Source: an uncultured Lachnospiraceae bacterium (GTDB taxonomy: Bacteria > Bacillota > Clostridia > Lachnospirales > Lachnospiraceae). From it: a stretch of DNA of 34,011 nt. A program made the position numbers and the translations under genes. The stretch's first letter is position 1. The number at the start of each line of letters is the position of its first letter. This document shows positions 2,530 through 28,564 of this stretch, piece by piece. Below the pieces are notes generated by a model that ran no database searches, was not told the DNA's origin, and worked only from the letters and a program-made list of their open reading frames with translations. Location of the stretch: assembly GCA_947627645.1 (NCBI GenBank), contig CANQWV010000011.1:1-34011 (forward strand), given 5' to 3'.

Positions 2530-2561
2530 TCGCAAACGCTTTCCTTGCCTTTGCATAGTCC

Positions 2562-4783: not shown

Positions 4784-4827
4784 CCCTATCCTCGTAGTCT
4801 CCATTTCCCTTATTTCTTGATGAGCCG

Positions 4828-4905
4828 TTTCCAAGCAAAAATATCCAGATGGACACATATTTCCAAGCAAAAGTTTCCCGATGAGCCGCACATTTCAAAG
4901 CAAAA
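4828..4905. repeat. Three imperfect tandem repeats, period 32-33 bases
   Basis: The plus-strand motif TTTCCAAGCAAAA occurs at 4828-4840 and 4860-4872, with the variant TTTCAAAGCAAAA at 4893-4905. GATGAGCCG flanks copies one and three. The array fills the gap between the GT2 gene and the kinase-nucleotidyltransferase gene. The period is not a multiple of three, which argues against it being coding. Confidence 0.7.
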
Positions 4906-5619: not shown

Positions 5620-5634
5620 AACCCTTGCACCTGC

Positions 5635-6879: not shown

Positions 6880-6902
6880 ACAAATCTCCATCCCATCGCA
6901 AT

Positions 6903-7784: not shown

Positions 7785-7787
7785 ACG

Positions 7788-9140
7788 TTATTCCCTGCAC
7801 TTCTCCAGCCATATAAGAAAATCTTTCAACAGCAACGCTGCCCCGAAAAAGGCAAACGGCAGGACATAGCTTGTACAGCGCTCATAACTTCCAAATGTCC
7901 CCACAATCACAGACACAAGAACCACCAGAATCATCCCAGCCGTGCCCAGGTAGTACCAGGGGCACTCCTGGTTCCGCCTCCATTTCACAATCAGCAGCAA
8001 TAATACTGCCCCGCAGATCAGGTAGACGTGACCGATCTTTACAAGAGGGAATAAAAGCAGTTGAATCTGATAAATTTTATGGAACGCAGGAGAACTCTCA
8101 TCCAGCTCGGACTGCAGCAGCTTATATTCCCTTCCTATCACATTTACAAACCTTCCAAGCAGATACCTCACATATGTCCCGGGGTCTGATCCGATGCAAT
8201 AATTGTTAAATTTCCTCACCTGGGCGTTCCACTCTTTCTGATTGTCACCAAACAACAACAAAATCGGTTTTTGTGTTTTTTTCCAGGCAGGCGACTTTCC
8301 GCTTTCCATATAAATCCTGTCAATCTCCTCCACCAGTTCCCGATCCGGATAATTCTTGTAGAGTCCCGTCTCAAGGCAGGCGATCAGCATATGGCGCGGC
8401 CCTCTTTTATCCACGCTGAAGGTATTTGCATTCTTCCAGACTTGCCCCGCATAGAGCAGAAGCAGGCAGCCAATCCCCAGCAGAGCGGCGGACAGCCTCA
8501 AAACAATCTTTCTAATGTCTTTGATATTAAAGTATTGAATCGCCATAAAAATCAAATAGGCTGGCACGTAGACGAACATTGCCGACTTCTGCAACACCGC
8601 CAGCAAAATGCAGAGCACCATCCACATTCCACTCCGCCATGAGTGCGACCGAATATAGCATACCGTATGGTACAGCAAAAACACGGTAATCGAAATTGCA
8701 AAAGATTCTGTGAGTATCACAACGTCGGCATTCACAAGCCACGGATTCCCCCCATAAAAGAAAGCCGCAGCACAGGCAATTCCACGGTTTTGCGTAGCAA
8801 TCCTCACCGAGCGGTACAGGTACAGCACGGAAACCAGCGATACAAGAATCTGGCAAACGACCACCCCCATCAAATACCTGTCATGGAACAACAGGCGATT
8901 CAGCCGGATAACCAGCGGATACAGCGGCATACGCTCCCCACACAGGAAACCGCGCCATGTAAACTCCAGATATGTGTGCGTGTCACCTTCTATCCGAGGC
9001 ATATCAACAAACAGGTAAAACAAAAACCGGATCAGGAATATGCAGCCGGCCGTAGTCCATTCCGGCGTCCCCCATCGCAGTCGTTCGCGCGCTGCGGAAT
9101 TGCTTCTCCGCTTTTTGCCTATTAAAATACTTCCTGTCAT
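7788..9140 (-). CDS. Polytopic membrane protein, GT-C/GT39-like glycosyltransferase candidate
   Basis: 450 residues with about ten hydrophobic segments. After a basic N-terminus and the first membrane helix, an outer loop contains RIEGDTHTYLEFTW and then RMPLYPLVIRL. This arrangement (acidic residue in the first loop, then an R-x-P-x-YP segment) is seen in GT-C enzymes that use polyprenyl-phosphate sugars. A large non-membrane loop (about 245-345) lies between helices and is less typical. I assign it to GT-C/GT39 only tentatively; a polymerase-like membrane protein is the main alternative. It sits between the GT4 array and the ABC permease with gaps of 16 and 3 bases. A GGAG site lies 8 bases before the ATG. 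The DPM1-like GT2 downstream would be a fitting partner. Confidence 0.6.
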   Translation of the reverse strand: MTGSILIGKKRRSNSAARERLRWGTPEWTTAGCIFLIRFLFYLFVDMPRIEGDTHTYLEFTWRGFLCGERMPLYPLVIRLNRLLFHDRYLMGVVVCQILVSLVSVLYLYRSVRIATQNRGIACAAAFFYGGNPWLVNADVVILTESFAISITVFLLYHTVCYIRSHSWRSGMWMVLCILLAVLQKSAMFVYVPAYLIFMAIQYFNIKDIRKIVLRLSAALLGIGCLLLLYAGQVWKNANTFSVDKRGPRHMLIACLETGLYKNYPDRELVEEIDRIYMESGKSPAWKKTQKPILLLFGDNQKEWNAQVRKFNNYCIGSDPGTYVRYLLGRFVNVIGREYKLLQSELDESSPAFHKIYQIQLLLFPLVKIGHVYLICGAVLLLLIVKWRRNQECPWYYLGTAGMILVVLVSVIVGTFGSYERCTSYVLPFAFFGAALLLKDFLIWLEKCRE

Positions 9141-9156
9141 CGTTCCTTCTCCTCTC

Positions 9157-10284
9157 TTATCCTCTGCCTTTGTTGCTAAAGCAAAGCCCGCGCAGATTTT
9201 CCAAAAGCCGCTCCGCCATCTCCCGCGCAGATCCCCATTCTTTCATTCTCTGTTTTGCCGCATCGCCAAGCCTCTCTGCTTCCTGTGGATTCTCAGCCAA
9301 ACGCTGCATCGCACACGCCATCGCCTCTACATCCCCAACAGGCACCAGCAATCCATCTTTCCCATCCGTAATCAAGTCAGACGGCCCAGTGGGGCAGTCT
9401 GTAGAAATGCAAGGCAGGCCGGCCGCCATCGCTTCCATCAGAGCGTTCGGGCATCCTTCATAGTCTGACCCAAACACAAATGCGTCTGCTTCTTCATACC
9501 TTCGCTCTATGTCCGAGACACGTCCCGGCAAAAATACCCTTTCTTCCAGATGAAGCTCCTGAATCAACGCTTCCAGTTCCTGCTTCGGCCTTTCATCTTC
9601 CGGTTGTACACGTCCATATATCGTCAGCGTAGCATACGGATCTTCTGTTCGTAGCAGCATCAGAGAAAATGCCTGAATCAGCAATTTCTGGTTCTTTTGC
9701 CAGTGTATCCTGCCTACGCTGATAAATTGTCGGATAGTACTCCTTTTCTGCCTTGGAATTTCCAGGAAGCGCTGATCAAGAAGGTTGGGAGCCTCAAATA
9801 CCTTTTTCAGCAAATAAGGCGGAAAGAATCTGCGCTGTCCCGGCATCTGGATCCAGATCCCGTCCGCCAGAAGGCAGTTTCTTTTCCATCTGCGCCTGCT
9901 CTTTCCATCCGCACATTCTTTCTGAGAATTGTTGCGTACCGCATAGACCAGATATGTTTTCGAGCATAGTGTTGACAGCCAGATTCGCGTATTATAGTGT
10001 GCGGGAAGGCAAAGCGATACGATCACATCTGCTTTGAGCTCCCGCAGTCGTTTTATGGAAATCATGATATTGCATAACCCCCGCAGCTTTGGAATCTTTA
10101 CTCTGGAAGAATACGTCAAACGGTGCCGTTTGACTTTTTCGTCTGGAAAATATTCCTCTGTCTCTGTCTCAACGCAAACGATATGGATTTCTTCCCCCAG
10201 CTTTGCAAGTTCATTTGCAAATGCCACCACTTCCCTTTCCGCGCCGCCGTTCTTCAAATGATATATCGCAAATACAATCCTCAT
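9157..10284 (-). CDS. GT4 family glycosyltransferase, paralog 1 of 4
   Basis: 375 residues, GT-B fold. The N-terminal domain opens with MRIVFAIYHLKNGGAERE, whose GGAER loop is conserved in all four neighbours. The inter-domain region has RFISVGRIHWQKNQKLLI near 215. The nucleotide-sugar site has an FVFGSDYEGCPNALMEA segment (the E-x7-E motif) followed by a CISTDCPTGPSDLI stretch. It should transfer a sugar from a nucleotide donor with retention onto a lipid-linked glycan at the cytoplasmic face. The ATG at 10284 is preferred over a GTG nine bases upstream because GGAG sits 8 bases before it. It is the most downstream paralog. The closest copy is probably the next gene (10306-11409), with which it shares the whole layout including NQKLLI-type and FFPP/FFPRY segments. 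Donor and acceptor are unknown. Confidence 0.9.
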   Translation of the reverse strand: MRIVFAIYHLKNGGAEREVVAFANELAKLGEEIHIVCVETETEEYFPDEKVKRHRLTYSSRVKIPKLRGLCNIMISIKRLRELKADVIVSLCLPAHYNTRIWLSTLCSKTYLVYAVRNNSQKECADGKSRRRWKRNCLLADGIWIQMPGQRRFFPPYLLKKVFEAPNLLDQRFLEIPRQKRSTIRQFISVGRIHWQKNQKLLIQAFSLMLLRTEDPYATLTIYGRVQPEDERPKQELEALIQELHLEERVFLPGRVSDIERRYEEADAFVFGSDYEGCPNALMEAMAAGLPCISTDCPTGPSDLITDGKDGLLVPVGDVEAMACAMQRLAENPQEAERLGDAAKQRMKEWGSAREMAERLLENLRGLCFSNKGRG

Positions 10285-10305
10285 AGGTCTCACTCCGAAT
10301 CATTT

Positions 10306-11409
10306 TCAACTTTTCCTGCATTCAGAAAGAAGCCTCCCCGCAATTTCCTCCGGACTTCCCCACGCTTTCATTCTCTGCCTTGCCTCCATCCCCATCCTCC
10401 CTGCTTCCCGCGGATGTTCCAGCAAGTATTGCATCGCCTGTGCCATTGCCTGTGTATCTCCTACCGGCACCAGCAATCCGTTCGTCCCCGCAGTGATCAA
10501 ATCAGACGGTCCAGTAGGACAGTCTGTGGAAACACACGGCAATCCCGCTGCCATCGCCTCCATCAATGCGTTTGGACAACCCTCATAGTCAGAACCAAAA
10601 ACAAACACATCCGCCTCTTCATACTTTTGCTCTATATCCGAAACACGCCCCGGCAGAAAAATGCGCTTTTCAAGCCGATATTTCAATATCATTGTCTTTA
10701 ATTCCTGCTCAAGTCCTTCGTCCTGCTGCTGTGCACGTCCATATATCGTCAGCGTAGCATCTTGATCCCGTGTGCAGGAGAGCATCCGGGCGAACGCCGT
10801 AATCAGGAGTTTTTGATTCTTCTGCGGATGTATCCTGCCTACGCTGATAAAACGGTGAATATGCGGCCGTTCTTCCCTTGGTATCTCAAGGAAACGTCGG
10901 TTGAGAAGATTCGGCACCTCGAAAATTTTTTTTTGCATATATCGCGGAAAGAAGCCGCGCTGCCCCTCCGTCTGGATCCATATTCCGTCTGCCAGAAAAC
11001 AATTTTTTTTCCATCTGCGTCTGCCCTTCCCAGCGGGATATTTTTTTTCCAGATTATTGCGCACAGCATAAATAAGGCGCGTTTTTGAGCATAACGTCGC
11101 CAACAGAAACTTCGCCGCGTCGCCCATCGGATTGCAGACCAATATCAACATATCCACCCTAAGCTTCCGCAATTTCAAAAACGGCAGCAGGGCATTGCAC
11201 AATTTTCGCAGTTTCGGGTTTCTCGCGGTTGAGGAATACGCGAGCTTATGCCGGATAACCCTAGGATCTGGAAAATATTCCTCTTCTCCCTCTTTCTCGC
11301 ATACGATATGAACTTCCGCCCCCAGTTTCACCAGCGTATCCGCAAACGCCACCACTTCTCTCTCCGCGCCGCCATCTTTCAAACACTTTATTACAAACGC
11401 AATTTTCAT
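10306..11409 (-). CDS. GT4 family glycosyltransferase, paralog 2 of 4
   Basis: 367 residues with the same architecture as its neighbour. MKIAFVIKCLKDGGAERE opens the acceptor domain and SKTRLIYAVRNNLEKKYPAG lies near 110. RFISVGRIHPQKNQKLLI sits at the domain junction and FVFGSDYEGCPNALMEAM (E-x7-E) in the donor domain. The C-terminus LLSECRKS is shorter than in paralog 1. The reading frame extends upstream to 11466, but the conserved start and a GGAG 8 bases before it point to the ATG at 11409. The DNA carries several long A/T homopolymers (for example near 10925 and 11045) that its sisters lack, a sign of independent drift. Function is presumed to be chain extension of the exported glycan; the sugar is not known. 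Confidence 0.9.
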   Translation of the reverse strand: MKIAFVIKCLKDGGAEREVVAFADTLVKLGAEVHIVCEKEGEEEYFPDPRVIRHKLAYSSTARNPKLRKLCNALLPFLKLRKLRVDMLILVCNPMGDAAKFLLATLCSKTRLIYAVRNNLEKKYPAGKGRRRWKKNCFLADGIWIQTEGQRGFFPRYMQKKIFEVPNLLNRRFLEIPREERPHIHRFISVGRIHPQKNQKLLITAFARMLSCTRDQDATLTIYGRAQQQDEGLEQELKTMILKYRLEKRIFLPGRVSDIEQKYEEADVFVFGSDYEGCPNALMEAMAAGLPCVSTDCPTGPSDLITAGTNGLLVPVGDTQAMAQAMQYLLEHPREAGRMGMEARQRMKAWGSPEEIAGRLLSECRKS

Positions 11410-11455
11410 ATGTCCAGCTCCGGGATGCTCTCTGCCAGTGAATTTCAGCTTATAT

Positions 11456-12388
11456 TCATACATCAATTCCTGGCAGTTTTTCCATGTCTCCTAAAACCAT
11501 ATCCCATTTTTCGTCTTTAAACTTCTGGAATCCTCCCCACGGGAAAAAGGTCATTTCACCAATGTATACCCTGTTTTCTATAATATAGCAGTCAACCCTT
11601 ACAAAAGGGATTTCCCCTTCAGCCATCTTTTCTGCCACATTTATCATTTCTTCATAGCAAACCGGCTTTTCTATGACGATATCTTCAGACGGATAGTCAA
11701 GTTCTATTTCGGTTTTCTTCCATTGCCGGTCATACGCACCACAAAAGTACGCGCGTGGTTTAAACCCGCTTTCTTTTGAATGATTCTTCCAGACAAAGGT
11801 GTAGCGCACCTTTCCATTGAAACAATAATTTTTATAATCAATCAGATTCTCACCCACATACTCCTCCGCTATAATTCTCCTTCTGACATCCTTATATGGC
11901 CATTCCCGGTGCTTGATGTAATAATCCGTTCTTTGCCTTCTGTTCAAAGTAGCAATGGCGCACTGCCTGTCAAAATCCTGCAGGTTTCTGCACACCGCGA
12001 CGCCTCCTGCATGGTTGCACTTTAGCACAAACTGACATGGCAGATTCTCCCAGTCGATATCCTCCGGTTTATCCCACACCCCGATCAGCGGAATCGCATA
12101 TTGGGCTCCTACTTTTTCCGCAACAATGCCCTTTAGTAAATATTTATCAACCATCGAAGTGTATATTTCTTTTCTGTCATGAATTTTTCTCCAATTACTC
12201 TTTTCGTTAAAGCTCCTTGGATGATCCAAGTCGATTGTCTTGCCAAGACGCTTCTTATACTCTTTTGCCAGGTATTTTTCATCAGCCATATATGCCTTAT
12301 TCACAATCTTCTGGATTGTCGGTCTGCCCAGCAGAAAATAGTGTATCCTGTACAAAATACGAATCGTTCTGGCAAATAACATATTCAT
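11456..12388 (-). CDS. TupA-like ATP-grasp protein
   Basis: About 310 residues, matching the TupA-like ATP-grasp family (PF14305 type). Visible landmarks are PRSFNEKSNWRKIHD near 60, DKYLLKGIVAEKVGAQYAIP near 80, LPCQFVLKCNHAGG near 120 (ATP-binding Lys strand), RRIIAEEYVGEN near 165, CFNGKVRYTFVWKN near 185 and the metal/ATP region VRVDCYIIENRVYIGEMTF near 270. Family members lie in capsule and teichuronopeptide clusters and are thought to ligate an amino acid or peptide-like group to a glycan, or otherwise to form an ATP-dependent bond. It sits within the GT4 array, between paralogs 2 and 3, with gaps of about 46 bases on both sides. AAGGAG precedes two candidate ATGs (12388 and 12382); the first is given. 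Substrate unknown. Confidence 0.8.
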   Translation of the reverse strand: MNMLFARTIRILYRIHYFLLGRPTIQKIVNKAYMADEKYLAKEYKKRLGKTIDLDHPRSFNEKSNWRKIHDRKEIYTSMVDKYLLKGIVAEKVGAQYAIPLIGVWDKPEDIDWENLPCQFVLKCNHAGGVAVCRNLQDFDRQCAIATLNRRQRTDYYIKHREWPYKDVRRRIIAEEYVGENLIDYKNYCFNGKVRYTFVWKNHSKESGFKPRAYFCGAYDRQWKKTEIELDYPSEDIVIEKPVCYEEMINVAEKMAEGEIPFVRVDCYIIENRVYIGEMTFFPWGGFQKFKDEKWDMVLGDMEKLPGIDV

Positions 12389-12433
12389 CAATCTCCTTCC
12401 AGCCATCCTGCCAGCCTGAGAAAACGCTTCGGC

Positions 12434-13561
12434 TCAAACCCGGTCTTCTTCACACTCATCCCCAGGGCTTCCCACCTTTGTAATCCTTTGCAAATTCCCC
12501 TGGAGCCGCTTTGCGTGCTCCCGGGCTGTCCCCCAATCTTCCATCCTCTGCCGGGCTGCTTTGCCGAACCGAACCGCCTCCTGTGGGTTCTCGATCAAAC
12601 GCCGCATCGCCCCTGCCATTGCCTTCACATCCCCAACCGACACCAGCAAACCGCTCACCCCGTCTGTAATCAGGTCAGCCGGTCCTGTAGGACAGTCTGT
12701 AGAGATACAAGGAAGTCCGGCTGCCATCGCCTCCATCAGCGCATTGGGACAACCCTCATAATTTGATCCGAATACAAAAACATCCGCCTCTTCATATTTT
12801 TTTTCGATATGAGACGTCCTTCCCGCCAGGAAAACCCTGCCTTCCAGGCCAAGTTCCCGGATTTGTTTTTTTAAGCTTTCCTCCATCCAGAGAAAATCCC
12901 TGTGTGCGCTGCCATAAATCGTCAAGGTAGCAGTCTCATTTCCAGTCTGTCTGAGCATACTACCAAAAGCCTCAATCAGCAGTCTCTGATTCTTCTGTGG
13001 ATGGAGCCTGCCGACACTAATAAAACGCGTCATTCGTTCCCTGTATGCTCTGCGGATCTGCAAAAAACGGCTATCCAGGATATTGTGTACCACAAACAGC
13101 TTGCCCTGCTGGTTTTGGGGGAAGAAGCACCGCTGTCCTTCTGTCTGGATCCAGACGCCGTCCGCACACCAGCATGCAAGTTTTCCCCTGAGCCTGTCCA
13201 TCCCGGTCACAAGCTCTTTGTCCAGGTTACCGCGGACCGCATGAACCAGCCTGGTTCCAGAAAGCAATACCGCCAGATGAAACGGCACATAAAACAGCAC
13301 CGCCACATCCCCCCGCAGCGCGTGCAGCAGTTTCCACATAAGTAAAGTATTAAACGCTCCCCGCAGCTTTGGTATCTGTACGTGAGTATCACGGAACCAA
13401 TGTCTGTGAACCCGTTTGTCCACATCATAGTCATCCTTCACATCGTGTGTACAGATAACGTGAACCTCTTCACCCATTCTCGCAAGTTCACTCGCAAAGG
13501 CCGCCGCCTCTCGCTCCGCCCCGCCGCCTGCCAGCTGCGTTGCTATGAATATGATCCTCAT
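12434..13561 (-). CDS. GT4 family glycosyltransferase, paralog 3 of 4
   Basis: 375 residues. MRIIFIATQLAGGGAERE opens the protein, a TRFISVGRLHPQKNQRLLI segment joins the domains, and FVFGSNYEGCPNALMEAM carries the E-x7-E donor motif. Differences from the other three include GSNYEG instead of GSDYEG, SVGD instead of PVGD after the donor loop, a divergent acceptor domain (LHALRGDVAVLFYVPFHLA) and a long C-terminal tail ending in an acidic ECEED stretch. The frame stays open to 13642, inside the upstream gene, but the conserved start is the ATG at 13561, 2 bases after that gene's stop. Translation is thus probably coupled to paralog 4. The altered acceptor domain suggests that it acts at another position in the glycan than its sisters. 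Confidence 0.9.
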   Translation of the reverse strand: MRIIFIATQLAGGGAEREAAAFASELARMGEEVHVICTHDVKDDYDVDKRVHRHWFRDTHVQIPKLRGAFNTLLMWKLLHALRGDVAVLFYVPFHLAVLLSGTRLVHAVRGNLDKELVTGMDRLRGKLACWCADGVWIQTEGQRCFFPQNQQGKLFVVHNILDSRFLQIRRAYRERMTRFISVGRLHPQKNQRLLIEAFGSMLRQTGNETATLTIYGSAHRDFLWMEESLKKQIRELGLEGRVFLAGRTSHIEKKYEEADVFVFGSNYEGCPNALMEAMAAGLPCISTDCPTGPADLITDGVSGLLVSVGDVKAMAGAMRRLIENPQEAVRFGKAARQRMEDWGTAREHAKRLQGNLQRITKVGSPGDECEEDRV

Positions 13562-13563
13562 AA

Positions 13564-14673
13564 TTATCCGCAGATCCTCCGAAAATTTTCCAACAACCTT
13601 CCAGCCAGAGCCTCCTGGCTCTCCCAGGATTGCATTCTGCATCTTGCTGCCCTTCCCATCCGGTTGGCGTCCTGTGGATGCTGCAGGAAATACTGCATTG
13701 CACGCGACATCGTCTCTATATCACCGACTGGCACCAGCATCCCGTTTTCTCCATTCGTAATCAACGCGGACGGACCCGTAGGGCAGTCTGTAGAAATACA
13801 GGGAAGACCGGTCGCCAACGCCTCCATAAGGGCGTTCGGCAACCCTTCATAATCTGATCCAAACACAAAGGCATCCGCTTCCTCATAGCATTTTTCGATT
13901 TCCTTGACACGTCCCGGCAAAAATACGCGGTCTTCCAGGTGACAGCTGCGGATCATTTCCCTCAGTTCTTCCTCGACCGGACCGTCCCAAGGCATTGCCT
14001 GCCCATATATGGTAAGAGTGGCGTATGGATCGCCCGTCCTTTCAAGCATTTTTGCAAACGCCTCAAATAGCAGTTTTTGATTCTTCTGAGGATGGAATCT
14101 GCCGACGCTGATAAAACGACGGATTTCTTTTCGTTCTCGTTCCGGTATCTTTAGAAAGCGCGGATTCAAAATATTAGGAACCTCAAATAATTTCTTCTGA
14201 ATGCGTGTCGAAAAGAAACGGCGCTGCGCCTCTGTCTGGATCCATATGCCATCCGCAAAACGGGCTGCCCGTCTCCATGCCTTCCTGTCTTCTTTTGCTG
14301 TATATTTCTTTTCCGGATTATTGCGAACCGCATGCAAAAGTTTTGTTTTGGAAAAAGAAGCGGCAAGCCAGACCACCGGAAAATACTTTGCCGGCAAACT
14401 AATCGCCAATATAATATCTGCGTGCAAATTCCTCAATTCCGGTGTCGCATTTCGCCACCGGAACAAAACACGCAGCTTTGGGATACGCACACGAGAGGTA
14501 AGGGACAAACGATGCAGGCGTACCCTCGGATCAATCTCATAGTCTCCTGCCTTGTCATTCAAGCAGAAAATATGGACTTCCTGATTCAATCCCGCAAACA
14601 CGCTGGAAAAGGCAGCAATTTCCCTCTCCGCCCCGCCATTTTGCAATTGTCCGGTCACAAAAATAATTTTCAT
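13564..14673 (-). CDS. GT4 family glycosyltransferase, paralog 4 of 4
   Basis: 369 residues, first of the four paralogs in transcription order. It opens with MKIIFVTGQLQNGGAERE. RRFISVGRFHPQKNQKLLF joins the domains and FVFGSDYEGLPNALMEAL carries the E-x7-E motif. In this copy the Cys of GCPNALMEAM is Leu and the following segment reads ATGLPCISTDCPTGPSALI. The GGGGGAAAGC stretch directly before the ATG acts as ribosome site. It starts 36 bases after the acyltransferase-lyase stop. As for its sisters, a retaining transfer from a nucleotide sugar onto the growing lipid-linked glycan is the expected activity, without evidence for the specific sugar. Confidence 0.9.
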   Translation of the reverse strand: MKIIFVTGQLQNGGAEREIAAFSSVFAGLNQEVHIFCLNDKAGDYEIDPRVRLHRLSLTSRVRIPKLRVLFRWRNATPELRNLHADIILAISLPAKYFPVVWLAASFSKTKLLHAVRNNPEKKYTAKEDRKAWRRAARFADGIWIQTEAQRRFFSTRIQKKLFEVPNILNPRFLKIPERERKEIRRFISVGRFHPQKNQKLLFEAFAKMLERTGDPYATLTIYGQAMPWDGPVEEELREMIRSCHLEDRVFLPGRVKEIEKCYEEADAFVFGSDYEGLPNALMEALATGLPCISTDCPTGPSALITNGENGMLVPVGDIETMSRAMQYFLQHPQDANRMGRAARCRMQSWESQEALAGRLLENFRRICG

Positions 14674-14709: not shown

Positions 14710-17700
14710 TTACTCTTCAGCTCCCGCTTCTCCCAGACTGTTGACCGCCGCCCGTCTTTCGACATCCCAGTAGTAGTTTCCTTCATTGCAGAGTTCGTCC
14801 TCTTTCTGCGTCCCGCAGCCGTCCAGGACATCCGATTTCCCAGTTTTAGTGTCCGTCCGTATGGAACGGAAACCGTGTACCGAATAGGCCGTACTTTTCT
14901 GATTTTTTGTATAAAGGCGAATGTTGCAGCCTCCGTTGTCGATGGCCGTGCAGTCCGTCAGCGTGATATCCGGACAGCTGTTGGAGGTAAAGCCATCTTT
15001 TCTGTTCTCGTAGGAAAGGCAGTTCTCCAAAATGTGCCCGCCTGGCATACCGTCGCCGCCCAGCTTGAAGCCGTTCCCGTTTCCGGCCTCCCTGCCGTCC
15101 TCCAGATAGCCGTTTTGATAAGCGGTGCAGTTTTTCAAGGTAACCGGTCCTAACGGTTCCAGCCACAACTTCGCGTAAAAGTCCCAGCCGTCGTCCGCGT
15201 TGTGGTGCGCGGTGCATCCGTCAAATACATTTCCCGGCCCCGCGGTGAACTGACAGGCAAAGCCGTCCGCGTCCTCGTAGGCGTCGTCGCAATTTCCATA
15301 GGAGATACAATTGAAAATATAATTGTCAGACGGCCACTCACCAGCTTCGTCCCAGACGGACAGGCTGCTGATATGCAGGCCGGTGTTCCCGTTCCGATAG
15401 ATCTCCAGATTTTCCAGCCGGTTATGGCTTCCGCTCAGGTGAATCCCATATTCGTTGACTGCGGATCCGGTACAGTCAAAGCCGTCGAAGACCCAATAAT
15501 CGGCAGAGAGCGTGATTCCCCCGCATTTCTTCTGGAAATTCAAAACCGGTCTTTTCACGTTTGAAGGATCCGCCGTCAAGACAATCGGCTTCTCCTTTGT
15601 CCCATTGTGTCCCTGCTCGATTGTGAGCGGCTCCGATAATCGATATTCCCCGTCCGCCAGAAGAATTCTCTGCCCGGGCGCGGCATATGCTGCCGCCTCG
15701 GCAAGGCTGACCGGATTTTCCCGCGTTCCCGGTCTGCTGTCTGTCCTCTCTTCTGTCATCGTAGACACGGCGTCCGTATGGTCTCTATCCGGAGAGGTAT
15801 AAATATCCCCGTTTTCGTCCCCCAGCTTCTGGTAAGAAACCGTGTGCCAGAACACTGCTTCTGACGGATCAGACAAGATTTGCGGCCTGTCTTTTCCCTC
15901 GTAAGCGCCTTCTTCCTCCCGGCGGCCAGCATGATCGTCCTCTTTTCCGTCCTCCGCTTCTTCCTTCGGCAGAAAGGAAACCTCATAGCGATTCTCTCCC
16001 TCCCGCAGCTGACACGGAAGGGAATAGCTTTCCCCCGCCTCCAGAACAGCATCTGTGACAAGCGCCCCGCCCTGTTCCTCTTTTATGGATAATGTACCGC
16101 CATAGTTGGTCTCAAAGATCAGTTCATAAGCTTCGGCGTTTGACGTATGGGAGCTCGTCACCCTGAAGTCAGGATCCATCACCTCCGGCGGTCCCTCCTC
16201 CGCCCTCGGATCCGTCCGCGCGTCCGTCACGCTCAGCTTCATGTCCTGAAAAGTTATGCGCGCCTGTCTTGTCACAAAAAATCCGACATATACGTGCTCC
16301 GGGTCGATCACGGCCAGATTTTCCCTTTTTCTATCGTAAAACAGCTTTTCATGTACGGTTCCGTCCTCCTCGATATAGCGAAGCCGATAACCAGTATTAT
16401 CTCTGCAAATTTCCAATTTGATAGTAGTAAGCAGCTCTTCCTCTCCCACCGTACCTGCAGGCGGATGTTCTCCTCCTGATGCAGAAATGGAGGTATAGTT
16501 TCCGATAATGTTGTATGTTCCCGCACCCCTTGAGCCTTGAGACTCCTCCAGCGTATACGTTCTGACCGTCTGCGTATGCGCAGCCGCCTGCGCATTCTCC
16601 GGATACGCTTCGGCAGAGCCAATCTTCTCTCTCGCCGCGATCCCCTGTCTCATGGTGATAAGATCGCCCACATTGGAGGCTTTTTGTGTCTCGGAATTCC
16701 ATTGATATTCTACTTTTGTTACCGCCGCCATGTACGAATTGTTCCAGAAATCTATGCTGTCGCCGTGCTCACCCACAGAATCGCTCGCCATCAGCCCAAA
16801 ACCGTCGTCCTCCCCATTGGTCATTGTCCAGGAATCCACGGTAACCTGCGCAGAGAGCACAAAATTGTCCTCCCGCGCGTCCAACTCCGTATAGTAAAAG
16901 CTCAATCCATCCGCCCCATATGTCACCAGCTTACCGCTGCCGGTATTTTCGACCGTCAATCTGCCGGCATCATAACTGCCCGTATAAGCTGTTTTCTCCA
17001 GATCTGTCCCTGCACCGTAGGCAGTATACTCCCAGTCCCTGCGATCTCGAAGCTGCCGGGTCAGAAAGAAAGCGGCAAGCGCCAGAATACAGGCGGTCAC
17101 ACAGCCGACAAGCATGAACTTTCTGCCGATACGGATTCTATCTCGTCCTCCGCCGCAAAACCTGCCGGCGCTGCCGCATAGACTCCAGGCCACCGCGAAG
17201 CTTGCCGCGCTCATTGCCAGCACTGCCGCGAAGGCACCCATTCCCCGCCATTTTTCTCCGAGTTTCACAACGCATAGAAGTCCCCCAAGTCCATAGATAA
17301 GCCTGTGTGAATAATACAGCCACACGCTGGCTCTCTGCATTCCAACAGCCGCGCTGTCCGATATCGGAAGCTCAACATCCACGATACACAACAGCAGCAG
17401 CGGCGCCAGCAGTGCATGAGTCAGGTACAGCGCGCGATCATCCAGATAAACACTGTTTTTCGTCAGGTAAATTTCTACTGCGTAGAGAAGTATGGCGCAG
17501 GCCAGAAGAACGCGCCGCCATCTCACGCCCACATTTGCGCTGTACCAGTCCCATGCCCTGATTCCCAGGGAAAGGAAAGGAAATCCAACAAACACTCCGT
17601 TTCTCGCGGAAAGAAAAAAATCCATGTAAGAGTCAACCGCTCCGTCGAGTCCGGCCAACTGTGCAAGAAAATAGTAATTGTTGCCCAAAAGCGCCCATCC

Positions 17701-18225
17701 ATAGAGCAAAGTCCCCGCAAGCAGAGCCAGCTTCATTTTCCCTCTGCACAGGAACGGATATAATAACCATACGCCGACGATGCAGGCCTGCACGAACCAC
17801 ATCGCGCCATAGGGATAAAACAGGATATGCCTGATAAAATGTTCAGCCAGGTATCTCAGGCTCTTTCCATACCGGAGCCGTTGCGTAATCAATTCCAGCG
17901 CGGCGTTCGCGCCTCCCACGAAGATAAGAGGAATAAAAAGTCTGCGTGTATATCTGCGAAGCACCACGGCGACCTGCCGGTTCCAATCCGGACCGGCTTG
18001 CTTTTGCCTGTCTCGTCCTTGTTCATCCTGTCTTTGCCTGTCCTGTCCCTGTCCGTATAGTTTTCTGCCAAGCAAAAAACCGGACGTGACAAAAAAGAAC
18101 GGAACCGCCAGCCGGAAAACGCCCTGCGTAATCCAGAAGGCAAACCTCTGCGGAAAGCCATCGAAAATATGCGTATGGATTGCAACGACACAGACAGCGA
18201 AAAAAAGCCGAAGCACATCCAACAT
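14710..18225 (-). CDS. Membrane acyltransferase-3 fused to LamG-like and PL9-type pectate lyase domains
   Basis: 1171 residues. Residues 1-355 are an acyltransferase-3 membrane domain with about ten hydrophobic segments (MLDVLRLFFAVCVVAIHTH with the conserved His, then VPFFFVTSGFLLG). A further helix near 370-390 leads to an outside part. Residues about 395-700 are beta-rich and LamG-like. Residues about 830-1140 form a right-handed beta-helix that strongly resembles polysaccharide lyase family 9. It has the DADGFACQF, NADDGWDFYAK and GNGFKLGGDG segments, matching the calcium-binding Asp set (D; D-D-x-x-D) and catalytic Lys described for Pel9A. The lyase part therefore looks intact. Domain order implies an acyl transfer channel in the membrane with a uronan-cleaving domain outside. 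The frame extends upstream to 18369 but overlaps the previous gene; the ATG at 18225 matches the usual AT3 start. Such a fusion is not one I know as standard. Confidence 0.82.
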   Translation of the reverse strand: MLDVLRLFFAVCVVAIHTHIFDGFPQRFAFWITQGVFRLAVPFFFVTSGFLLGRKLYGQGQDRQRQDEQGRDRQKQAGPDWNRQVAVVLRRYTRRLFIPLIFVGGANAALELITQRLRYGKSLRYLAEHFIRHILFYPYGAMWFVQACIVGVWLLYPFLCRGKMKLALLAGTLLYGWALLGNNYYFLAQLAGLDGAVDSYMDFFLSARNGVFVGFPFLSLGIRAWDWYSANVGVRWRRVLLACAILLYAVEIYLTKNSVYLDDRALYLTHALLAPLLLLCIVDVELPISDSAAVGMQRASVWLYYSHRLIYGLGGLLCVVKLGEKWRGMGAFAAVLAMSAASFAVAWSLCGSAGRFCGGGRDRIRIGRKFMLVGCVTACILALAAFFLTRQLRDRRDWEYTAYGAGTDLEKTAYTGSYDAGRLTVENTGSGKLVTYGADGLSFYYTELDAREDNFVLSAQVTVDSWTMTNGEDDGFGLMASDSVGEHGDSIDFWNNSYMAAVTKVEYQWNSETQKASNVGDLITMRQGIAAREKIGSAEAYPENAQAAAHTQTVRTYTLEESQGSRGAGTYNIIGNYTSISASGGEHPPAGTVGEEELLTTIKLEICRDNTGYRLRYIEEDGTVHEKLFYDRKRENLAVIDPEHVYVGFFVTRQARITFQDMKLSVTDARTDPRAEEGPPEVMDPDFRVTSSHTSNAEAYELIFETNYGGTLSIKEEQGGALVTDAVLEAGESYSLPCQLREGENRYEVSFLPKEEAEDGKEDDHAGRREEEGAYEGKDRPQILSDPSEAVFWHTVSYQKLGDENGDIYTSPDRDHTDAVSTMTEERTDSRPGTRENPVSLAEAAAYAAPGQRILLADGEYRLSEPLTIEQGHNGTKEKPIVLTADPSNVKRPVLNFQKKCGGITLSADYWVFDGFDCTGSAVNEYGIHLSGSHNRLENLEIYRNGNTGLHISSLSVWDEAGEWPSDNYIFNCISYGNCDDAYEDADGFACQFTAGPGNVFDGCTAHHNADDGWDFYAKLWLEPLGPVTLKNCTAYQNGYLEDGREAGNGNGFKLGGDGMPGGHILENCLSYENRKDGFTSNSCPDITLTDCTAIDNGGCNIRLYTKNQKSTAYSVHGFRSIRTDTKTGKSDVLDGCGTQKEDELCNEGNYYWDVERRAAVNSLGEAGAEE

Positions 18226-18262
18226 TTTCGAATGTCCGCCAGGATCTGCCAGAAGCCTCTTT

Positions 18263-19459
18263 CTATTTTTTAAAGTAATCTGCCTGGTACAGCTTCCTCG
18301 CATATCTCCCGACCTCCCGGATATCGCAGCCCGCATCCCGGATCTCCTTCCACGCACCCGCACGCGCACCCTCTGCCACGGGCTTCAGGGAAAGCAGCCA
18401 ATCGGCCCAGGCCTGAGCTCCATCGGCCAAAGGCATCACGGCAAAATCCTCCCGGATTCTTGCTTCCGGCGGAACTACATCAGAGACCAGGCAGCGCAGT
18501 CCGGACGCCTGTGCCTCCAAACTCACAAAAGACAAGCCTTCCTCAATGCTGGGCAACACGAATGCATCCATAGCGCTCAGATATTCATCCACCCTATCCG
18601 TAACTCCTGCAAAGATTACTTTCTCCGCCAGAGCGCACCCGACGGCCTGCTCTTTTATCTGGTTCATAAATTCACCTCCGCCCACCAGCAAAAGCCTTGC
18701 CTGTGAGTTCTTCTCCGCGGCAATGCGGAAGGTTTCAAGCAGAAAGCGATGATTCTTTAGATAGGTAAAGCTGCCAACATGGCCGATCACCAGCGCGTTG
18801 TCCTCCAATCCCAGTCTTTTCCGGCAGGACGCTCTCTTTTCCGCGGAAAAGGCAAAGCGCTCCGTATCGATACAATTCGTAAAAATCATCGCCTCGTCTA
18901 TGTGCTTCTGCCCGCACATATACTCCGCCGCCCAGGAGGAGCAGGCGGCAATCTTTGCTGTAGTGTGCCGGATCAGCCATCTGAGGCAGCCGGCTTTCAG
19001 ACGGTTTGTCCCCCTCGGGACGGAATGTCCATGGGCGATCCGGTATTTTATCCCTGCGTGTATGGCCGCAAGCAAAGCCTCCGCCTGGAAGCGCAGATTA
19101 GACGTATGGATATGAATGAGCTGGAATTTCTCCTCTCTGCACAGCCGATACAACTGCCCGAAACAATAGAACTGCTTCGCAAGCCCGCCCATACCTGACG
19201 ACGGCGGCAGCTCCGATACGATGCGGACGCCCTCCACCACAAATTCCTCTGCCAGGGAAGCGTCCTCAATCCCCCTACAGTACCAGGTAAACGAATATTC
19301 CTCCTGCGGCAGGGCTCTCACCAAGTTCAGCAGAAACAGCTGCACCCCGCCTCTCATGAGAGGGAAAGGCGAGACCAGCAGGATCTTTTTTCTATTACTT
19401 CTACTATTGCTATCACTATGTCCCTTCTCTCTATCTTTTCGATCAATCCCAAAACGCAT
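18263..19459 (-). CDS. GT4 family glycosyltransferase, EpsF-like
   Basis: 398 residues, GT-B fold, distinct from the four-paralog group. After a charged N-terminus (a serine/asparagine-rich stretch) comes KKILLVSPFPLMRGGVQLFL near 25. It continues with IHIHTSNLRFQAEALLA, then a YRIAHGHSVPRGTNRLKAG segment, IGHVGSFTYLKNHRFLLE near 230 and SIEEGLSFVSLEAQASGL near 320 (E-x7-E type). These features are typical of EpsF/capsular GT4 enzymes of Firmicutes, which transfer hexoses or N-acetylhexosamines. The ATG has GGGAGG 9 bases upstream. It lies 36 bases after the initiating transferase gene and 37 bases before the acyltransferase-lyase gene, so it probably adds one of the first sugars to the lipid-linked primer. 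Confidence 0.88.
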   Translation of the reverse strand: MRFGIDRKDREKGHSDSNSRSNRKKILLVSPFPLMRGGVQLFLLNLVRALPQEEYSFTWYCRGIEDASLAEEFVVEGVRIVSELPPSSGMGGLAKQFYCFGQLYRLCREEKFQLIHIHTSNLRFQAEALLAAIHAGIKYRIAHGHSVPRGTNRLKAGCLRWLIRHTTAKIAACSSWAAEYMCGQKHIDEAMIFTNCIDTERFAFSAEKRASCRKRLGLEDNALVIGHVGSFTYLKNHRFLLETFRIAAEKNSQARLLLVGGGEFMNQIKEQAVGCALAEKVIFAGVTDRVDEYLSAMDAFVLPSIEEGLSFVSLEAQASGLRCLVSDVVPPEARIREDFAVMPLADGAQAWADWLLSLKPVAEGARAGAWKEIRDAGCDIREVGRYARKLYQADYFKK

Positions 19460-19495: not shown

Positions 19496-20149
19496 TCATT
19501 CATCCACGCCTTCGCGCAGAAGCACCTGTTTCATCGTCTTCCAGAATATTCTCCAATCCAGGAGGAAACCCATTTTTTCCAGATATTCCCTGTCGCAGAC
19601 CGCTTTCTCCTCATCTGCCAGCAAATCACGCCCATTCACCTGCGCCCAGCCGGTAAGCCCCGGACGCAGCTGATATACGCCGTCCTCCCAGCGCATGACG
19701 TGCATATTCCTCTCCTGCGGAATCAACGGTCTGGGCCCGATCAGGCTCATCCTGCCACACAGAACCTGAAACAGCTGAGGTAGTTCGTCCAGGCTGGTGC
19801 TGCGCAGGAAGCGTCCATATCCCGTAATGTATTCCCTTCGATCCGCTGCTTTTTTCGTCCATACAGAAGGAGGGACGTTGTTTCTCATGCTGGAAAATTT
19901 AACCAGTGTGAACAATTCTCCGTCCCTTCCCACCCGCTTCTGCCGAAAAAAAACCGGGGAGGCAGGATACAAAAGTTTCAATGTCAACGCGATCAGAAGC
20001 ATAGGAAACGCCAGAAACCCCAGCGCCGCAGCCGAAAACACAATATCCATAGCTCTCTTCAGCGGCAGATATCTCCTCTGGCGTTTCGTCAGGATATGCG
20101 CATCCTTCTTGCCCCTTCGCTCTGTCGTATCGAAGATCCTTTCACCCAT
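19496..20149 (-). CDS. Undecaprenyl-phosphate sugar-1-phosphate transferase (initiating, EpsL/WcaJ-type core)
   Basis: 217 residues, the short catalytic form of the bacterial sugar transferase family (PF02397). LKRAMDIVFSAAALGF begins the single membrane segment near 30-55, followed by VFFRQKRVGRDGELFTLVKF. The catalytic motifs DELPQLFQVLCGRMSLIGPR near 117 and QLRPGLTGWAQVNGRD near 160 are present. The enzyme attaches a sugar phosphate to the lipid carrier and thus starts a repeat unit. The donor is not deducible; UDP-GlcNAc, UDP-galactose or a diamino sugar are typical. It overlaps the LicD stop by 8 bases with GGAG 8 bases before the ATG, which indicates translational coupling. Confidence 0.92.
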   Translation of the reverse strand: MGERIFDTTERRGKKDAHILTKRQRRYLPLKRAMDIVFSAAALGFLAFPMLLIALTLKLLYPASPVFFRQKRVGRDGELFTLVKFSSMRNNVPPSVWTKKAADRREYITGYGRFLRSTSLDELPQLFQVLCGRMSLIGPRPLIPQERNMHVMRWEDGVYQLRPGLTGWAQVNGRDLLADEEKAVCDREYLEKMGFLLDWRIFWKTMKQVLLREGVDE

Positions 20150-20987
20150 CTGCAGCTCTCCTCAGCAGAACCTTCTGCATATGCGGACGTTTCCGCACTT
20201 CCGGCGGCATCCGCCAGTCACTGCCGTACATCTGCGCCAGGTATTTCTCCCAACAGGACGGCACATGGAAAGTCCGCCCGCGCAGAGAGAGCTCAGCGGT
20301 CTTCGTATATTCCTCCCTGCGCATCCGCTCCTGCGGTCCGCAGCTGGAAGCCACAGCCCCCACATAGCTACTTGTCTCAAAAGGAAAACGACGTGCGTAG
20401 CGGACGACTGTCCTGGTCCAGAATCCTTCTCCTCCCAGTCTTCCGATCAGCCTGACCGGCGGAGCCAAAAGAAGACGGCCGATCTGTTTCCCTGGCGTCG
20501 GGCGGCGAACCAGATAGGGAAGCGCATCCCAGGAAGGAAATCGTTTTAAGATCTGAGCGACCCGAAGCCAGAGGGCAGAAAAAACCTCATTCTGCGGCAG
20601 GCCGTCCATGGGATAGATGTCCAGCCAGAGATGCGGGACGCCCAGAGAGCGATCCGGTATGAAGGTCTCCAAGTCCGCAAGCTTTGCGTGAGGAAAAAAG
20701 GAGTTCTTCTTCTCCGGAGCAAAAAGCGTATACCCGCCCAGTCTGTTTCCTGGAAGCTCCGCGAGCAGCCGCTCATAATCGGGTCGAGGCAGCAGAACAT
20801 CCAGATCGTCATCCCAGGCAATAAAATCATGCCGCCTCGCTGCTCCCAGCAGGGTGCCGCCGCAGAGGTAATAACGGATCCTATGGGCGTCGCAATAGTC
20901 TGCAAAAGCACAAAGCATGGAAAAAAGCCTGTCATGAATCTCTTCCTGCGTCAGTTCATGCTCTGAGCCCTTCAGATTGTTTAACAT
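20142..20987 (-). CDS. LicD-family phosphotransferase
   Basis: 281 residues. The LicD core is clear: RYYLCGGTLLGAARRHDFIA near 45 is followed by WDDDLDVLLPRPDYERL, with the metal-binding DDDLD. Later it has a PHLWLDIYPMDGLP segment and a C-terminal WEKYLAQMYGSDWRMPP that fits the family's closing region. LicD proteins add phosphocholine or other phospho-substituents to surface glycans such as teichoic and lipo-oligosaccharides. Some members transfer ribitol- or glycerol-phosphate. No choline kinase, choline uptake or CTP:phosphocholine cytidylyltransferase gene is in this window, so the substituent remains open. The ATG at 20987 lies inside the end of the O-antigen-ligase gene (32-base overlap), indicating tight coupling. 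Confidence 0.9.
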   Translation of the reverse strand: MLNNLKGSEHELTQEEIHDRLFSMLCAFADYCDAHRIRYYLCGGTLLGAARRHDFIAWDDDLDVLLPRPDYERLLAELPGNRLGGYTLFAPEKKNSFFPHAKLADLETFIPDRSLGVPHLWLDIYPMDGLPQNEVFSALWLRVAQILKRFPSWDALPYLVRRPTPGKQIGRLLLAPPVRLIGRLGGEGFWTRTVVRYARRFPFETSSYVGAVASSCGPQERMRREEYTKTAELSLRGRTFHVPSCWEKYLAQMYGSDWRMPPEVRKRPHMQKVLLRRAADG

Positions 20988-22347
20988 TCTGCGGTGGTCT
21001 CCCTTCTTCGTTTCGTTTCGCGGCCAGCAGACCCAGTCCGATCCAGAGGAACGGCGTAGTAGCGACGACATTGATGTTGAAAAAATCCTGGATCAGATAG
21101 CAGGCAAGCCCGGCGCCAAGCGCCGCAGTAAAGTCGTCCTTTCGGTTCCTGAGCCATGCCGCGCAGCCCGCACCGATCAGGGCGAGATAACACGCAAGTC
21201 CCAGAACCCCGGTATCCATCAGATATCCCAGATAACTGTTGTGGACATTACGGATGCTCACGACACGGTTCATCTCCTCATTCACAGTATGGATATCAAT
21301 CAGCCATGCGCCGGAGCAAGGCCCGTTCCCAAGAATCGGTTTTCGGACGACGGAAGTCCACGCCTGCTGCCAGGCGCCGATCCGGTCGTGTCCGAAGGAC
21401 GGTTCAATGTGGCCGTGGAGAATGGAGGACGCCTCGTAGAGGAAGCCCGATTCCCCGGGCCAGAAATAGACGGCAGCAAGTCCCAGCACCACCGCCGCCG
21501 CACAGACAATTCCCGCACGTTTCGCCCATTTCGGATTTCTGATCACAACCGGAGGGACGACAGCCAGACAACCCAGCAGCCCCACTTTTCCCGCGTCTAC
21601 ATCGCTTCCCAGCAGAGCATAAAGGGAGATGACGGCCGGAACCAGCAGAAGGAGATCCTTCCTGCAGGCCGAACGGACGGCAAAAACCGTAAGAATGGGA
21701 ATTGCGAAACAGAGAAACGCGGCAAGAACATCCACATTTCCCATCGTTCCGAGGTAAGCGCCTGTGTATTCCTGATATTTGTTGTAATAGTTCAGCCCTT
21801 CCGGATACATCCCAAGAGGATTGCCCCCAGCCAGCTGAATGACCGAGAGGATTCCGGATAAGAGTACGGAGACTCCAAGGACCCGGATATGCATCGCCTT
21901 CGGGCGGCCGAACAGCGACACGCCGAGGAAAGCCAGCGTGTAAGACGCCACGAAGAGGACACTGTTCGTATTGGAAGATCTCAGCATGAAAAAGCTGTCC
22001 CGCACCGAGGCAGAAAAGCAGGCAGAAACGATATGAATCACGAGAAAAGCAAGCGCGGCGGCATGATACCAGCGGAAGCGCACGAAAACCGACAGCTTCT
22101 TCGCTCTACACCAGAGCAGATATCCTCCCAGACATACGAGCCATACGACGTTGATCCCCAGCCAGAGTTTTGCTTTGGTCTCCACCAGGTTGAGGTAGCC
22201 GTAATCGCCAAGCCCTATCATCAGCGGAAAGAATCCGAAGACAACCAGAAGATACAATTCCACGATGTCCTCGCAGACGCTCTGTGGATCCAGGTGCTGC
22301 TCACGTCTTTTTACACGGCGTGCGCCATTCTTCTTTTTCCCGGCCAT
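20956..22347 (-). CDS. O-antigen ligase/polymerase-like membrane protein (Wzy/WaaL family)
   Basis: 463 residues with about 11-12 hydrophobic segments after a basic N-terminus (GKKKNGARRVKRREQ). The conserved large outer loop holds a SFGHDRIGAWQQAWTSVV stretch, then KPILGNGP and the RNVHNSYLGYLMDTGVLGL segment, matching the R..W / G.G / HNxYL..G..GL pattern of the PF04932 family. It may polymerise lipid-linked repeats (Wzy) or transfer a finished glycan to an acceptor (WaaL/LytR-like role); sequence alone does not separate these. AAAGGGGAC precedes the ATG at 22347 by 7 bases, only 2 bases after the GT26 stop. A longer frame to 22479 has no better site. A Wzx flippase, which a Wzy route needs, is not in the window. 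Confidence 0.85.
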   Translation of the reverse strand: MAGKKKNGARRVKRREQHLDPQSVCEDIVELYLLVVFGFFPLMIGLGDYGYLNLVETKAKLWLGINVVWLVCLGGYLLWCRAKKLSVFVRFRWYHAAALAFLVIHIVSACFSASVRDSFFMLRSSNTNSVLFVASYTLAFLGVSLFGRPKAMHIRVLGVSVLLSGILSVIQLAGGNPLGMYPEGLNYYNKYQEYTGAYLGTMGNVDVLAAFLCFAIPILTVFAVRSACRKDLLLLVPAVISLYALLGSDVDAGKVGLLGCLAVVPPVVIRNPKWAKRAGIVCAAAVVLGLAAVYFWPGESGFLYEASSILHGHIEPSFGHDRIGAWQQAWTSVVRKPILGNGPCSGAWLIDIHTVNEEMNRVVSIRNVHNSYLGYLMDTGVLGLACYLALIGAGCAAWLRNRKDDFTAALGAGLACYLIQDFFNINVVATTPFLWIGLGLLAAKRNEEGRPPQNVKQSEGLRA

Positions 22348-22349
22348 CG

Positions 22350-23108
22350 CTAGTCCCCTTTCGCCTTTCGATTTCCAAAGGCCTTCTTCATCGTTTCCCA
22401 GAGCGCCAGAAGCGGAAGCTCCATGGACATACAAACTCTTCCAAACCTCCAGGGCTCCTGAAGAAAGCGGAAGGCCCATTCAAGATTATGCTTTCTCCAG
22501 CTCTCCGGGGCTCGCTTCAGATCCCCGGCGCAGACATCGATCCAGCCGCCGCAGCCGCAGGCAAGCCTGGCTCCCGTCGTCTCCCCAAACTCCGCCATCC
22601 AAAGCTCCTGCTTCGGGGAGCCCAGGCAAACCAAAAGCAGCTCCGGCGCACAGCGTGCAATCTCCTCCGCCGCAGCCTCCGGATCCTGAAAAAAACCATG
22701 CTGAAACCCGCAGAGCTGCAAATCCGGGTAGCGCTCCCGCAGGCATCGTCCTGCCTTCTCGGCCGTCCCCGGCTTCCCGCCCAGTATATATACCCGAGTC
22801 CCTGCAAGCTCCGGCAAAAGCACGTCCAGAAAATCCATGCACGGGATCCGTTCCACCAGAGGTGCGCCCAGAATGCGGGAAGCACAGACGACCCCATAGC
22901 CATCCGCCAGAGACAGATCCGCCCGGTTTATCGCCTCACGGTATCTCTCGTCGCGGCGCGCCATCCTCAGCAGATTGGCGTTTGTACCGGCTATATAATG
23001 CCAGGAAGAGCTGCATAGCATAGCCCTGGCTCTCCCGACGGCTTCCTCCAACGTAATGTTGTCGAACTGCACGTCAAAAAGCGCAGCGCGTCTCTGATCT
23101 CGATTCAT
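22350..23108 (-). CDS. WecG/TagA/CpsF-family (GT26) glycosyltransferase
   Basis: 252 residues, the normal length of the family. WHYIAGTNANLLRMARR lies near 36 (the T-x-N-ANLLRMA motif), INRADLSLADGYGVVCAS near 60 (with the catalytic Asp of the TagA group), RVYILGGKPGTAEKAG near 105, LLLVCLGSPKQELWMAE near 157 and WRKHNLEWAFRFLQEPWRF near 205. These enzymes, such as TagA, add N-acetylmannosamine or a related sugar to the lipid-linked first sugar, which makes this the likely second step of the glycan. The C-terminus is longer and charged, in line with membrane association. It is first in the polysaccharide run, 150 bases after the surface protein stop, and has only a weak AAGAAAG ribosome site. 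Confidence 0.9.
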   Translation of the reverse strand: MNRDQRRAALFDVQFDNITLEEAVGRARAMLCSSSWHYIAGTNANLLRMARRDERYREAINRADLSLADGYGVVCASRILGAPLVERIPCMDFLDVLLPELAGTRVYILGGKPGTAEKAGRCLRERYPDLQLCGFQHGFFQDPEAAAEEIARCAPELLLVCLGSPKQELWMAEFGETTGARLACGCGGWIDVCAGDLKRAPESWRKHNLEWAFRFLQEPWRFGRVCMSMELPLLALWETMKKAFGNRKAKGD

Positions 23109-28457: not shown

Positions 28458-28564
28458 ACCAAATCTCCTTACCCGGAAAACCCGAAAATTTGCTGACACC
28501 GGAGCGTATTTCCCCAAGACATATATCCCTTGTTCATGATAAACGCGTCCGAAATGTTTATATT

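Follow-up and report, generated by a model that had tools for sequence, protein, structure and literature searches.

The stretch of DNA analysed here, called the window, comprises 34,011 nucleotides from an uncultured Lachnospiraceae bacterium (GCA_947627645.1, contig CANQWV010000011.1, positions 1 to 34,011 of the forward strand). Within it lies a gene that joins an acyltransferase-3 (AT3) membrane domain to a PL9-type lyase. Read on the minus strand, the gene is a single open reading frame (ORF) that starts with ATG 18225, has its stop codon ending at 14710 and encodes 1171 amino acids. An initial annotation of the window had the coordinates 14710..18225 right and left the minus strand unsaid. 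A second ATG at 18303, nine bases 3' of a GGGAGG, gives a product of 1197 amino acids and makes the gene overlap the upstream GT4 glycosyltransferase gene. This ATG is probably the true start, because the 26 added residues resemble the N-terminus of the relatives. Residue numbers throughout are counted from ATG 18225. The layout of the gene is as follows.

14710..18303, minus strand: AT3-PL9 fusion gene (ORF, start choice)
17179..18222, minus strand: acyltransferase-3 membrane domain PF01757, residues 2-349 (Pfam and motifs)
17134..17197, minus strand: 64-nt extra stretch at the junction, limits alignment-dependent (comparison with three split congeners)
17062..17118, minus strand: top hydrophobic stretch, residues 370-388, putative 11th helix (hydropathy)
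16246..17043, minus strand: unnamed module, residues 395-660, LamG-like in the initial annotation (common to lyases of Lachnospiraceae)
15745..16245, minus strand: more variable region, residues 661-827 (dN/dS by domain)
14911..15744, minus strand: PL9 beta-helix, residues 828-1105 (Pfam, PDB sequence matches, dN/dS)
15064..15267, minus strand: catalytic-set stretch with D987, D1011, D1012 and D1015 (calcium) and K1054 (base) (motifs, alignment)

The main elements of the observation, an AT3 domain and a PL9 module in one chain, were confirmed. Of the three parts that the initial annotation had read in this chain, the AT3 and PL9 parts were borne out by Pfam and PDB sequence matches, whereas the LamG-like part was not. 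A search for homologs with the same domain order, which had been proposed with that annotation, was run and returned one fused relative from another genus (G660) and four relatives with an overlapping pair of genes: three congeners (G330, G333 and G336) and an outgroup labelled Marvinbryantia (G1178).

Pfam Acyl_transf_3 (PF01757) matched residues 2-349 with an E value of 8.6e-15 (55 bits against a curated cut-off of 31), the alignment covering positions 4-324 of the 326 in the model. The motifs described for AT3 proteins are R/K-X10-H in the first helix, FF-x-[IT]SG, and RXXR in the loop between helices 2 and 3 (PMC7448272). The window protein keeps them as R6-X10-H17, FFVTSG (44) and RYTR (91); in G336, G330 and G1178 the first residue of the first motif is K, as the motif permits. 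The NCBIfam model of the VanT membrane part also matched the AT3 part (E 1.6e-16, below its cut-off), and no racemase domain was found in the window protein by Pfam. Nor was an SGNH family matched by Pfam in this protein up to E 0.01, the C-terminal part being PL9-type.

Hydropathy is highest at residues 370-388 (mean 2.61), between the AT3 domain and the unnamed module. In AT3-SGNH proteins an 11th helix stands at the corresponding place before the extracytoplasmic domain (PMC7448272, PMC9833829). By analogy with these proteins, we infer that residues 370-388 would serve as an 11th helix and bring the C-terminal part across the membrane, a topology consistent with the earlier proposal that the lyase lies on the outer face. 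Within the export helix, five of the six proteins have a lipobox-like AC pair (VSAC, IAAC, VTAC), which G660 is without.

The middle region gave few matches. Pfam found nothing for residues 391-700 at E values up to 1, and an 18-row profile made from them matched no PDB sequence up to the same E value, which leaves the LamG label unsupported. The NCBIfam PelX model (NF041903, pectate disaccharide-lyase) had its best matching stretch at residues 636-700 (E 2.6e-11, below the curated cut-off), and the window protein scored 169.6 bits, far below the cut-off of 1490. A PelX-type module at residues 395-660 was also considered and was dropped because the match starts only near residue 636. The region before it is common to other Lachnospiraceae lyases and is unnamed in the libraries searched.

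The assignment of the C-terminal part was clearer. Pfam Pel9A-like_beta_helix (PF22842) matched residues 873-1098 (E 1.6e-9; 37.6 bits against a cut-off of 25.2), and Beta_helix matched residues 904-1042 over its curated cut-off (E 5.3e-13). Among PDB sequences, residues 832-1101 matched Pel9A (1RU4; E 2e-26), followed by a PL9 rhamnogalacturonan lyase (5OLQ; E 1.1e-12) and, weakly, one glycoside-hydrolase chain (E 0.0062). The motifs named in the initial annotation were found as DADGF from residue 985, NADDGWD from 1009 and GNGFKLGG from 1050. Counted on the 1RU4 alignment, D987, D1011, D1012, D1015 and K1054 align with D209, D233, D234, D237 and K273 of Pel9A, following what we take to be the residue numbering of Pel9A and the calcium roles of its Asp residues. 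The lysine is the catalytic base in PL9 lyases (PMC6796002). All five residues were kept in each of the six AT3-linked lyases, and this conservation leads us to argue that the module could still cut. Among 75 other relatives, D987, D1012, D1015 and K1054 were present in every sequence and D1011 in 74.

The six AT3-linked PL9 modules formed one clade on a long branch (1.39; SH-aLRT 100) in a tree of 81 modules made with a quick method, in which ten rows, including all six of the clade, were flagged for odd letter composition and one (L087) filled fewer than half of the columns. Besides the window and G660, the tree comprised 79 GTDB loci, with the split members G333, G336, G330 and G1178 represented by loci L077, L078, L079 and L087, respectively. 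From residue 820 on, 23 positions separated the clade from the 75 others, a differing position being one where a residue found in at least 80% of the others was absent from the clade. Among them are two basic residues, R954 and K992, each present in 74 of the 75 others and replaced in all six clade members (by S954 and Q992 in the window protein); K992 lies five residues past a calcium ligand. Further residues changed in the clade were Q951, K1077 and D1080 (72 of the others each), G1023 (75) and K926 (64). Directly after the catalytic lysine, position 1055 is M in 61 of the 75 others and L throughout the clade. To our knowledge, none of the 75 comparison relatives has a tested substrate. The PL9 half of the pair thus reads as an intact engine with altered subsites, and the pattern suggests a pectinase lineage re-aimed at another glycan, probably that of its own cluster. 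The changed residues point to a substrate other than pectate; pectate, which had been put forward as an assay substrate, was left unsupported by the replacement of R954 and K992.

The two halves occurred together in 4 of 47 genomes of the window's genus, as one frame in the window and as two ORFs in different frames in G330, G333 and G336. Between two common anchors at the junction there are 109 bases in the window and 45 in the split congeners, and the 64 extra bases put both halves of the window gene in register. No second copy of this 64-base stretch was found within the window. G660 has a single frame that matches residues 1-1167 with 69% identity and has another junction length. G1178 has two overlapping out-of-frame ORFs, and its lyase gene is divided between two contigs, whose pieces appear to form one gene. 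In G333, G336 and G330 the lyase ORF would begin at an ATG behind a GGAGGA inside the AT3 gene, which gives a 115-nt overlap. The ATG beside the helix is replaced by ATA in G330, so in this genome the upstream start is the likelier one. All four split genomes agree in the phase of the lyase frame with respect to AT3. Programmed frameshifting in these relatives was considered as a candidate; no classical slippery site was noticed by eye.

The clade was therefore paired with AT3 in all six cases, fused in the window and in G660 and as overlapping ORFs in G333, G336, G330 and G1178. With G1178 as the outgroup, G660 fell outside the window and its three split congeners with weak support (73/72), and the AU test did not reject a tree grouping the two fused forms (p 0.158). 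These sequences do not separate a history of two fusions from one of a single fusion and a later split. An ancestral fused form was considered and dropped, since the outgroup is split. Because the parts are fused in some relatives and overlapping separate ORFs in others, the AT3/PL9 pair appears to be the kept unit, with one chain or two genes a changeable detail; the fusion looks real but not fixed. The invariable pairing, together with the presence of fused forms in two lineages, argues that the two parts work jointly.

Searches for a wider spread of the pair gave the following counts, which hold for the loci and genomes sampled. Of the named GTDB loci, 218 encode a relative, of which 80 were kept, 79 of them distinct. 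AT3 was found in three of the 79, although in 28 the lyase ORF starts within 1200 bases of the locus start, so that an upstream AT3 gene is not visible there; for one of these 28 (L087) the AT3 gene was located on another contig. The genome samples searched overlap, each being drawn from a larger group. With at most two candidates per genome scored, AT3 and lyase parts occurred together in one of 299 family genomes (the window's own) and, among the matches listed, in two of 392 order genomes (the window's own and G660). They also occurred together in 1 of 13 genomes of G660's genus. When the AT3 part served as the query, 5 of 396 family genomes matched, with a long frame in the window's own genome and G660, as did one of 398 phylum genomes, again the window's own.

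Compared pairwise with three congeners, the window had dN/dS values of 0.142-0.159 in AT3 and 0.115-0.149 in the ectodomain. When the domains were measured separately, against two congeners, the values were 0.114-0.124 for residues 395-660, 0.159-0.164 for residues 661-827 and 0.053-0.056 for PL9. With these values and the kept motifs, both halves look functional.

The initial annotation had also placed the gene in a surface-glycan cluster, which agreed with the neighbouring genes listed below and with their retention in relatives.

18263..19459, minus strand: GT4 glycosyltransferase upstream of the fusion gene (Pfam), an SDR-family gene in relatives
19496-20149, minus strand: Bac_transf, cluster core
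20142-21071, minus strand: LicD, cluster core
20956-22479, minus strand: Wzy_C, cluster core
22350-23108, minus strand: WecG/TagA, cluster core (whole core 19496..23108)
4927..14673, minus strand: rest of the cluster, with GT4 genes, TupA ATP-grasp, PMT_2, Wzm/Wzt ABC exporter and GT2 (Pfam)
23259-28517, minus strand: DUF7601 surface protein of 1752 amino acids with five DUF7601 and two DUF5979 stretches, adjoining WecG
2846-4891, minus strand: GHMP-type sugar kinase and GalU-like nucleotidyltransferase in one 681-residue protein (PDB matches)
1111-2556, minus strand: putative transposase (YhgA-like), bordering the cluster on its downstream side
2-832: GDSL-type lipase gene, cut by the window start and adjoining the YhgA-like gene

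The window, G333, G336 and G330 share the order DUF7601 giant surface protein, WecG, Wzy_C, LicD, Bac_transf, a variable gene, AT3/PL9, GT4 genes and PMT_2. Wzm and Wzt then follow in the window, G333 and G336, and the G330 contig ends earlier. A short version in G660 consists of the DUF7601 protein, WecG, Wzy_C, LicD, an IspD-family gene, an SDR gene, AT3-PL9 and an nrdR-like gene. WecG, Wzy_C and LicD thus lie upstream in five of the six; in G1178, where the upstream side of the cluster was not visible, the lyase gene is followed by GT4 genes. G333, G336, G330 and G660 each have a relative of the DUF7601 protein in the corresponding position. Because Wzy_C also occurs in ligases, this surface protein could be the acceptor of the cluster's glycan.

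Based on these data, we consider the chances about even that the protein is a membrane-anchored, two-headed glycan-editing enzyme that would both acylate and cleave the surface glycan of its own cluster. The AT3 part would take an acyl group from acyl-CoA inside the cell and present it outside, where the further helix would carry the PL9 lyase to the outer face. The lyase would cut uronate-containing stretches by calcium-assisted beta-elimination, and the two heads, acting on the same glycan, might together decide which chains are kept, trimmed or released. More tentatively, acylation may mark the sites at which the built-in lyase is allowed or forbidden to cut the emerging glycan, a pectin-degrading enzyme having been recruited for proofreading or length-setting and placed in one chain in some lineages; we regard this extension as possible rather than likely.

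Several observations weigh against this two-headed role. The values of dS are large (1.0-1.4 against the window), which makes the dN/dS values rough, pairwise and not specific to the window lineage, and the putative placement of the changed residues in the groove was judged from sequence only. The SDR-family gene that precedes AT3 in G333, G336, G330 and G660 is replaced by the GT4 gene in the window. Neither TIGR03026 nor PF03721 detected a UDP-sugar dehydrogenase in the window's genome, which is 88% complete, and the uronate that the lyase would need is therefore without a visible source there. This leaves the uronic-acid-rich capsule that the initial annotation had assumed unproven, and speaks against a uronate polymer in the window organism unless the gene lies in the unassembled part or another supply exists. 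In favour of the two-headed role, a UDP-sugar dehydrogenase gene directly follows the lyase gene in G333, where an SDR-family gene precedes AT3. Another dehydrogenase gene lies further along the same G333 contig, and genes of this kind that score above the cut-off are found elsewhere in G330, G336 and G660. A radical SAM-type gene occupies the area of the G333 dehydrogenase in G336, as the next gene but one downstream of the lyase (L047:6402-7418), and in G330, as the next gene (L048:13006-14037). The kinase-GalU-like fusion at 2846-4891 matched GalU and, weakly, galactokinase best among PDB sequences, and G336 encodes a close relative of it (L180:13745-15682). It is no more than a lead to a possible salvage route for a UDP-sugar, perhaps a UDP-uronate.

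The missing uronate source would also suit a beta-helix that no longer cuts and instead keeps the glycan in place for the acyltransferase, corresponding to the SGNH domain of OafA/OafB. The protein is laid out like AT3-SGNH proteins, with an extra helix before the outside domain, and has lost the basic residues of its relatives. We nevertheless find this doubtful, as the five calcium and base residues are kept in all six members and the dN/dS of PL9 is low. It is also unlikely that the protein is a surface-held pectinase for feeding on dietary pectin or a foreign polyuronate, with AT3 and the cluster link reflecting location only. In its favour, the ectodomain is 37-45% identical, in matches that span most of the ectodomain, to family lyases that have no detected AT3 neighbour, many of 20 such lyase stretches have signal-peptide-like N-termini by eye, and the window's genome gave no uronate source; against it stand the constant AT3 pairing, the location in a biosynthetic cluster and the replacement of R954 and K992 throughout the clade. 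Some beta-helix proteins, the mannuronan C5-epimerases, edit uronates, and on alginate acylation and epimerisation compete, which we counted in favour of a beta-helix that would leave the chain uncut and epimerise its uronates or edit them in another way. The base and calcium site could abstract a C5 proton. We consider this improbable because the strong sequence matches are all PL9 lyases, beyond which there were the general Beta_helix model and the weak glycoside-hydrolase chain, and because no epimerase family was matched in the Pfam and NCBIfam scans at the thresholds used. A one-chain form produced by an assembly or sequencing error, the concern raised with the initial annotation and one that the two out-of-frame ORFs of four relatives might prompt, is very improbable and largely answered by a 64-base difference with no second copy in the window and by a one-frame fusion in another genus.

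We return, then, to the two-headed enzyme as the preferred reading and to its place among known systems. AT3 proteins acylate many bacterial surface glycans, and the AT3 literature still asks why an outside domain is attached to, and needed by, some of them (PMC9833829, PMC9558356). A protein with a lyase in place of SGNH, either fused or encoded by overlapping genes, offers a natural experiment on the function of such a domain. If the reading is correct, a degrading enzyme would have been turned into a part of synthesis, and the substitutions around its intact catalytic set would be a lead to a new specificity. SGNH is the commonest AT3 fusion partner and alanine racemase the second (PMC9558356), and further AT3 fusions are mentioned in Eukarya (PMC9833829). 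Searches of open-licence papers aimed at an AT3-lyase fusion showed none among the titles and abstract openings listed, and the earlier statement that no standard system has this domain order agrees with the AT3 literature in so far as its available parts name SGNH and alanine racemase partners.

OafA, OafB and OatA resemble the window protein in their AT3 motifs, further helix and extracytoplasmic domain (PMC7448272), and OafA and OafB need both domains for acetylation (PMC7448272). They differ in that the partner in the window protein is a PL9 lyase module instead of SGNH and is encoded by a separate, overlapping gene in four of the six members. VanT has a similar C-terminal fusion to AT3, its partner being the alanine racemase domain that the window protein is without. 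Pel9A and PelX share the beta-helix and the four Asp and Lys residues with the window lyase, although the match to the PelX model is partial; unlike them, this lyase is predicted to be membrane-anchored with AT3, lies in a synthesis cluster and has replaced basic residues of the other relatives. The rhamnogalacturonan lyase 5OLQ, which we take to be of the BT4170 type (locus name), is more distant PL9 kin by sequence and is without AT3. An analogue of the proposed role is AlgL, a lyase that acts on a polymer under synthesis (PMC8829089) in a system that also acetylates that polymer (PMC10641220); it has another fold and works in the Gram-negative periplasm, with lyase and acetylation on separate proteins. 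PgaB and PelA combine acyl-editing and chain-cutting domains in one chain, but deacetylate and hydrolyse, whereas the window protein would transfer an acyl group and cut by beta-elimination. The families are thus known, and what is new is their combination, the conserved pairing and the diverged lyase clade.

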